From NCBI GenBank assembly GCA_902384525.1, contig CABMCA010000089.1, forward strand, positions 1-64,000: 64,000 bases of DNA. The letters are read 5' to 3'. The notes beneath the pieces are model-generated. The model ran no database searches. It worked only from the letters and a program-made list of their open reading frames with translations, and was not told the DNA's origin. This document shows, in pieces, positions 12,290 through 52,555 of the stretch. Position 1 is the stretch's first letter. Each line of letters starts with the position of its first letter. Position numbers and translations under genes: made by a program. Source of the DNA: an uncultured archaeon. Its GTDB lineage: Archaea; Halobacteriota; Methanosarcinia; Methanosarcinales; Methanoperedenaceae.

Positions 12290-13474
12290 TTGGGAAAAAA
12301 AAATATCGAAAGTATATGTCCTTCATGCAAATCATCAAATACCAATATCTTTCTTAATATTCCAAAAGTTCCTGTTCATTGCAACCTTCTCTGGGAAACA
12401 AGTGACGACGCCTTAAGAGCCCCAATGTCTGAGATTATCCTGGGGTTTTGTGGAGACTGTGAACATATTTTCAATTGTGCTTTTGATCCTGCCCTAATGG
12501 AATATACACAACAATATGAAAATTCATTACATTTTTCCCCGTATTTCCAGGATTATGCCAGGGAATTAGCGGATAGACTGATCGAAACTTATGATTTACA
12601 TGGAAAAAGTATCATAGAAATCGGATGTGGAAAAGGAGAGTTTTTGAAGTTGCTGTGTGAATGGGGTGGAAATCGGGGAGTTGGATTTGATTCAAGTTAT
12701 GAAAACGTTGGGGAGACAGATAGTGATCTGGAAATTACTTTCATTAAAGATTTTTATTCTGATCGCTATTTAAATTACAGGTCTGATTTTATATGTTGCC
12801 GGCAGGTCCTGGAGCACATCCAGTATCCTTACGACTTTATGACCGATCTTAGAAGAATGATAGGGAACAAGGATACTATTGTTTTTTTTGAAGTGCCGAA
12901 TGTTGATTATACTTTGAAGGATCTTGGAATATGGGATTTGATTTATGAACATAGATCGTTTTTCAGCAGGAGTTCACTCATGTATTTGTTCAAAGCATGT
13001 GGATTCTCGGTTCGAGATGTCTCTGAAAGTTATGAAGGCCAGTTCCTGTGCATAGAAGCAGTGCCAGAGAAGCTGCATCCTGATACAAAAGGCGAACACG
13101 TATGCGATATGAAAATGAGACATAATGTTGAGAAGTTTACTGAAACATTCTGGGCCAGGATTGAAACATGGCAGGAGAAAGTCAGGATGATGGAACGATC
13201 GGGTCAGAAAGCAGTATTATGGGGCGCAGGCTCAAAGGGTGTCACATTCTTGAATATGATCGGGGGCAAAGATAAAATAAAATATGTTATCGATATCAAT
13301 CCACGCAAACAGGGAAAATATACTCCGGGAACCGGACATAAAATCCTGCCGCCAGAGTTCCTGCGGGAATTCAGGCCGGACATTGTGATAATAATGAATC
13401 CGGTATATATTAATGAAATTCAACAAATGCTGGATAGTTATGGATTATCAGCTCAATTGATGCCCGTTTTATGA
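12290..13474 (+). CDS. Zinc-finger class I SAM methyltransferase, C-methyltransferase type (copy 2)
   Basis: 394 residues from a TTG start with an excellent CAGGAGGAAA site. It has the same layout as the preceding gene: CPSCKSS/CGDCEH zinc site, IIEIGCGKGEFLKLL SAM motif, and AVLWGAGSKGVTFLNM in the C-terminal half. The two proteins are clear tandem duplicates but well diverged, so they probably act on different positions or sugars. The stop overlaps the start of the glycosyltransferase by four bases (ATGA), which indicates translational coupling. A third family member lies at 16453. Confidence 0.75.
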   Translation: MGKKNIESICPSCKSSNTNIFLNIPKVPVHCNLLWETSDDALRAPMSEIILGFCGDCEHIFNCAFDPALMEYTQQYENSLHFSPYFQDYARELADRLIETYDLHGKSIIEIGCGKGEFLKLLCEWGGNRGVGFDSSYENVGETDSDLEITFIKDFYSDRYLNYRSDFICCRQVLEHIQYPYDFMTDLRRMIGNKDTIVFFEVPNVDYTLKDLGIWDLIYEHRSFFSRSSLMYLFKACGFSVRDVSESYEGQFLCIEAVPEKLHPDTKGEHVCDMKMRHNVEKFTETFWARIETWQEKVRMMERSGQKAVLWGAGSKGVTFLNMIGGKDKIKYVIDINPRKQGKYTPGTGHKILPPEFLREFRPDIVIIMNPVYINEIQQMLDSYGLSAQLMPVL

Positions 13475-52339: not shown

Positions 52340-52555
52340 TGGGGCTGGTGAGATTTGAACTCACGATCGACGGGTCTCTCCGAAAATGCCAGGTTTTTGG
52401 CAATTTAATCTTTGAGCAGCACGTTCAGTGCTCCAACGGTTCCTCATTGCTTACCGCGTCCGGTTCACTCGGTAGACCCGTTGCTCATCATCACTTCCGG
52501 ATTTCTCCGGTTTTCCGCTGGAGCCCGTCGCCATGCCGGACTAGGCCACAGCCCC
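52340..52555 (-). tRNA. tRNA-Trp (anticodon CCA) with a 142-base intron
   Basis: Exon 1 is 52555-52518 and exon 2 is 52375-52340, giving a 74-base mature tRNA. The acceptor stem GGGGCTG pairs with CAGCCCC and the discriminator is A. The D arm is GCC...GGC, the anticodon stem ACGGG pairs with CCCGT around loop CTCCAGA, and the T arm is GTGAG-TTCAAAT-CTCAC. The intron sits between positions 37 and 38, the standard archaeal place. The 76-residue ORF on the plus strand here is an artefact. Confidence 0.95.
52376..52517 (-). ncRNA. Box C/D guide RNA inside the tRNA-Trp intron
   Basis: The intron contains box C (GTGATGA), a C'-like ATGAGG, box D (CTGA) and a degenerate D' (CCGA). The guide before box D, GTTGGAGCA, pairs over eight positions with GCTCCAGC of exon 1 (one G-U), and the fifth base from box D faces C34. 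The guide before D', CGGGTCTA, pairs with AGACCCG around the 3' splice site; its fifth base faces position 39. This matches the known archaeal pre-tRNA-Trp sRNA that directs 2'-O-methylation at positions 34 and 39 before splicing. Here position 39 is C instead of U. Confidence 0.85.

Follow-up and report, generated by a model that had tools for sequence, protein, structure and literature searches.

What does the intron of this tRNA-Trp gene do besides being spliced out, and does it act on the tRNA that it interrupts? The 64,000-nt stretch of DNA analysed here (the window), from an uncultured member of the Methanoperedenaceae, carries on its minus strand a tRNA-Trp gene with anticodon CCA, broken after G37 according to both the sequence reading and Rfam, whose tRNA match (52555-52340, minus strand) reproduces exactly the borders given in the initial annotation (Table 1). 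The two exons are the sole tRNA-Trp that a search with the spliced sequence recovered from the 2.9-Mb assembly, and they are identical across 29 members of the family. Read from the sequence, the exon-intron borders form a canonical bulge-helix-bulge, in which CUCC (52523-52520) pairs with GGAG (52381-52378), the bulges are AG^C and AG^A, and each splice cut separates the second from the third base of a three-base bulge. ARAGORN made no call for the tRNA-Trp gene at 52340-52555. The program did call a tRNA-Ser(AGA) at 12918-13008 on the plus strand; this call falls within a reading frame of 394 codons (12290-13474), has no Rfam support and is probably a false positive.

Table 1. Features of the tRNA-Trp locus and its intronic guide RNA, in window coordinates.
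Feature	Position	Strand	Basis or remark
tRNA-Trp(CCA) gene with intron	52340..52555	-	Rfam RF00005, 44.5 bits
5' exon, 38 nt, last base G37; C34 = 52521	52518..52555	-	Intron parse
Intron, 142 nt, after G37	52376..52517	-	Sequence reading; relatives share borders
3' exon, 36 nt; A38 = 52375, C39 = 52374	52340..52375	-	Intron parse
sR3 box C/D guide RNA (RF01133)	52495-52423	-	Rfam, 52 bits; curated cut-off 41
Box C, AUGAUGA	52485..52491	-	Rfam sR3 alignment
D' guide, ACGGGUCU	52474..52481	-	Pairing region: end of intron and positions 38-43; G, the fifth base, faces C39
Box D', CCGA, non-canonical	52469..52472	-	CCGA in 25/29 family members
D'-C' hairpin, ACCG-GACG-CGGU, in 22-nt spacer	52453..52464	-	Covarying stem, invariant loop, 71 distinct introns
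Box C', UGAGGA, non-canonical	52441..52446	-	UGAGGA in 26/29 family members
D guide, CCGUUGGAGC	52430..52439	-	Pairing region: G31-G37 plus three bases at intron start; G, the fifth base, faces C34
Box D, CUGA	52425..52428	-	Rfam sR3 alignment

The intron contains the parts of a box C/D guide RNA in their usual order, and boxes C and D match the archaeal box C/D sRNA consensus. Ten pairs, one of them G.U, join the D guide to its target over the 5' splice site, and the fifth guide base upstream of box D faces C34; the D' guide forms 8 pairs over the 3' splice site, with C39 opposite the fifth base upstream of box D'. Boxes D' and C' depart from the consensus and, with 22 nt between them, lack a short spacer. 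The C'/D' boxes of box C/D sRNAs are commonly degenerate, and the non-canonical, distant boxes here weaken the case for the C39 half, not the membership of the intron in this RNA class. We are highly confident that the intron of this pre-tRNA-Trp is the archaeal sR3/tRNA-Trp-intron box C/D guide, which would methylate its own tRNA species at C34 and probably at C39. The genome encodes fibrillarin, Nop5 and the splicing endonuclease EndA. In the proposed mechanism, L7Ae, Nop5 and fibrillarin would assemble on the intron, and fibrillarin would 2'-O-methylate C34, and probably C39, in the same tRNA species, either before or after the endonuclease cuts at the bulge-helix-bulge; for this organism we infer both the assembly and the methylation. 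In folding of the intron, a check proposed in the initial annotation, the free RNA is more stable than shuffled sequences (z = -4.5), but the predicted structure holds the guides within intramolecular helices, so that pairing with the targets would need the protein complex (RNP) or a rearrangement. Two more hairpins lie outside the guide core, of which one (52510-52497) varies freely among relatives and the other (52402-52387) is mostly kept within the family.

An ordinary splicing intron might show box-like motifs by chance or through the constraint imposed by the bulge-helix-bulge, which by itself demands a GGAG complementary to CUCC. The GGAG used in splicing is, however, distinct from the GGAG of the guide. 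Moreover, when the intron was shuffled 20,000 times with dinucleotides preserved, pairing equal to that observed, counted anywhere in the intron and with no adjoining D box demanded, arose in 12 shuffles for C34 and 93 for C39. Loci of relatives were gathered from RF01133 matches, from a pattern scan of named genomes (Methanomicrobiales, Methanothrix, Archaeoglobus, ANME-2, Methanohalarchaeum and others) that favours introns whose box D lies close to the 3' exon, from a draw fitting the haloarchaeal class, and by direct fetch. RF01133 matched in 168 of 295 genomes sampled from the phylum and in 30 of 34 genomes of the same family. Parsing gave 207 distinct introns among the matches listed, a sample and not a census, and in all 207 both guides adjoin D boxes. 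The core pairs of the D guide (its third to eighth bases) are intact in 207/207 and those of the D' guide in 192/207. Such conservation makes a chance origin of the guides untenable and, together with the co-variation of target and guide described below, already refutes the reading as an ordinary intron, to which we assign a very small probability. The claims that the intron encodes a C/D guide aimed at positions 34 and 39 of its own tRNA, that both guide segments pair with the exons, and that the fifth base before box D falls on C34 are thus supported, with Rfam, the anatomy of the intron and the relatives in agreement. Some relatives have second, weaker RF01133 matches (for example G295:C7:602719-602770 and G305:C123:4354-4403), which may represent distinct guide RNAs or mere chance hits.

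The second guide does point at position 39, and that position is C here, as the initial annotation had stated. It had gone further and suggested that the guide base had co-varied locally with a change of its target. This part we reject: among the 182 introns with C39, the fifth guide base is G in 180, and the two exceptions (L078 and L242) have additional bases ahead of D', so that C39 facing a guide G is the ordinary combination outside the U39 group. The 25 introns with U39 are all of haloarchaeal type, a class inferred from the U39 form of tRNA-Trp shared with a Halobacteriales locus (L110), and 18 of them have A as the guide base, the other seven a G that pairs by wobble. Co-variation is thus found on the haloarchaeal side. 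Position 41 and its guide base are C and G in 168 introns and A and U in 26, and since the guide follows its target at both 39 and 41, a genuine D' guide is supported in general. Judged by these sequences, C39 is the usual state in the phylum sample and U39 the haloarchaeal variant, which corrects the view of C39 as a lineage-specific novelty. The alignment with introns of relatives that had been suggested as a check therefore upheld the conservation of both guides and not a change to C39 in this lineage. In line with this, the consensus D' guide of the Rfam sR3 model, ACGGGUCU, already aims at C39, and a table in a review assigns 'Cm34 and Um39 (or Cm39)' to the intronic guide and lists Um39 for P. 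abyssi (PMC6313347).

Two features absent from the initial annotation are the non-canonical D' and C' boxes and the interruption of the position-39 guide in close relatives. Across 29 family members the ten-base D guide is identical, and the C34 half is, by this measure, under strong constraint. The D' guide, in contrast, has a mismatch at base 2 in five members, a mismatch at base 7 in three and a one-base deletion in five. Its core (bases 3-8) is interrupted in 8/29 introns of the family compared with 7/178 elsewhere (Fisher p = 0.0002, relatedness ignored). Because these interruptions occur despite identical exons, the position-39 half looks to be under weaker selection in the family, which is not proven loss. 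One may go further and argue that only the C34 half works, and that the D'/C' half is a disappearing relic in the family with C39 un- or poorly methylated. The mismatches and deletions beside an invariant D guide and invariant exons, the excess of interrupted cores, and the family's boxes, with CCGA as D' in 25/29 and UGAGGA as C' in 26/29, would all fit such a relic. Nevertheless, all 29 members retain bases 3-6 of the D' guide and with them the G that faces C39, and the D' guide of the window's own intron is intact. Nor does a degenerate D' box prove loss, an argument that we considered and rejected: CCGA is the rule in haloarchaea, where both methylations have been demonstrated, and occurs as box D in 23/25 and as box D' in 17/25 introns of the inferred haloarchaeal type. 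On balance we consider a relic half unlikely, if a serious contender, and prefer a working guide for C34 with a probable one for C39. A loosening of the C39 half is plausible, since Haloferax volcanii tolerates loss of the whole tRNA-Trp intron under standard conditions (PMC7714728). Natural introns with the position-39 guide either intact or interrupted, between the same exons, are ready-made material for testing what extent of pairing a D' guide requires and whether Cm39 matters.

A further feature of the intron is the hairpin between D' and C'. The loop GACG is present in 71/71 distinct introns, which were chosen because their spacers, at least 24 nt long, contain GACG and which come from this family, other Methanosarcinia, Methanohalarchaeum and a few others; it is absent from only six other C39 introns with such long spacers, and those bear different insertions. 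The closing pair is G-C in 30, C-G in 35, U-A in four and G.U in two, and is thus paired in all 71, while pairs 2 to 4 form in 65 to 69 introns with several pair types. A constant loop on a stem that undergoes compensatory changes suggests a specific contact. The equivalent loop in most haloarchaeal introns is CUGAUCA. We considered pairing of GACG with tRNA bases 41-44 (CGUC), which is unsupported: the exon shows little variation among GACG carriers, and locus L079 retains GACG although its exon reads CGUA. The haloarchaeal loop region, too, looks like a complement of positions 38-44, but L074 and L161 retain CUGAUCA with changed exons. Pairing of the loop with the tRNA exon is thus not upheld. 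In this family the hairpin persists beside an eroding position-39 guide, so the intron may serve something other than guiding Cm39. That the hairpin is a functional element with a specific contact, be it a protein, a tRNA exon or a second intron, and that the intron is perhaps kept for a purpose other than Cm39, is a speculative proposal that we consider unlikely. The literature consulted, which covers the original biochemical work through citing papers, contained no account of the GACG loop.

Clouet d'Orval and colleagues in 2001 and Singh and colleagues in 2004 reportedly described a box C/D guide lodged in the intron of archaeal pre-tRNA-Trp. The locus shares with that guide the gene, the position of the intron, the order of the boxes, the two target positions, and duplexes that both span the splice sites. 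It differs in its C39, where the known guide has U39, in its CCGA and UGAGGA boxes, in the 22-nt D'-C' spacer with the GACG-loop hairpin, and in the length of the intron, 142 nt compared with 103 in Haloferax. The match to RF01133 is full-length, whereas the model has no D'-C' insertion of the kind present here. According to passages in two papers, the Haloferax intron directs methylation of C34 and U39 (PMC7714728, PMC7994747). The system is thus already published for Haloferax and Pyrococcus and is no discovery; only the eroding second guide in the family and the hairpin with its invariant loop appear to be fresh points.

In addition, perfect palindromes such as CCCCGGAATTAATTCCGGGG occur at varying sites in the tRNA-Trp introns of relatives (L033, L038, L042, L043, L045, L046, L047 and L051). 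A palindrome search of the 34 family genomes, allowing at most one mismatch, found such sequences elsewhere in 10 of them and none in the window's own genome. The palindromes may be a small dispersed element tolerating insertion in the intron.
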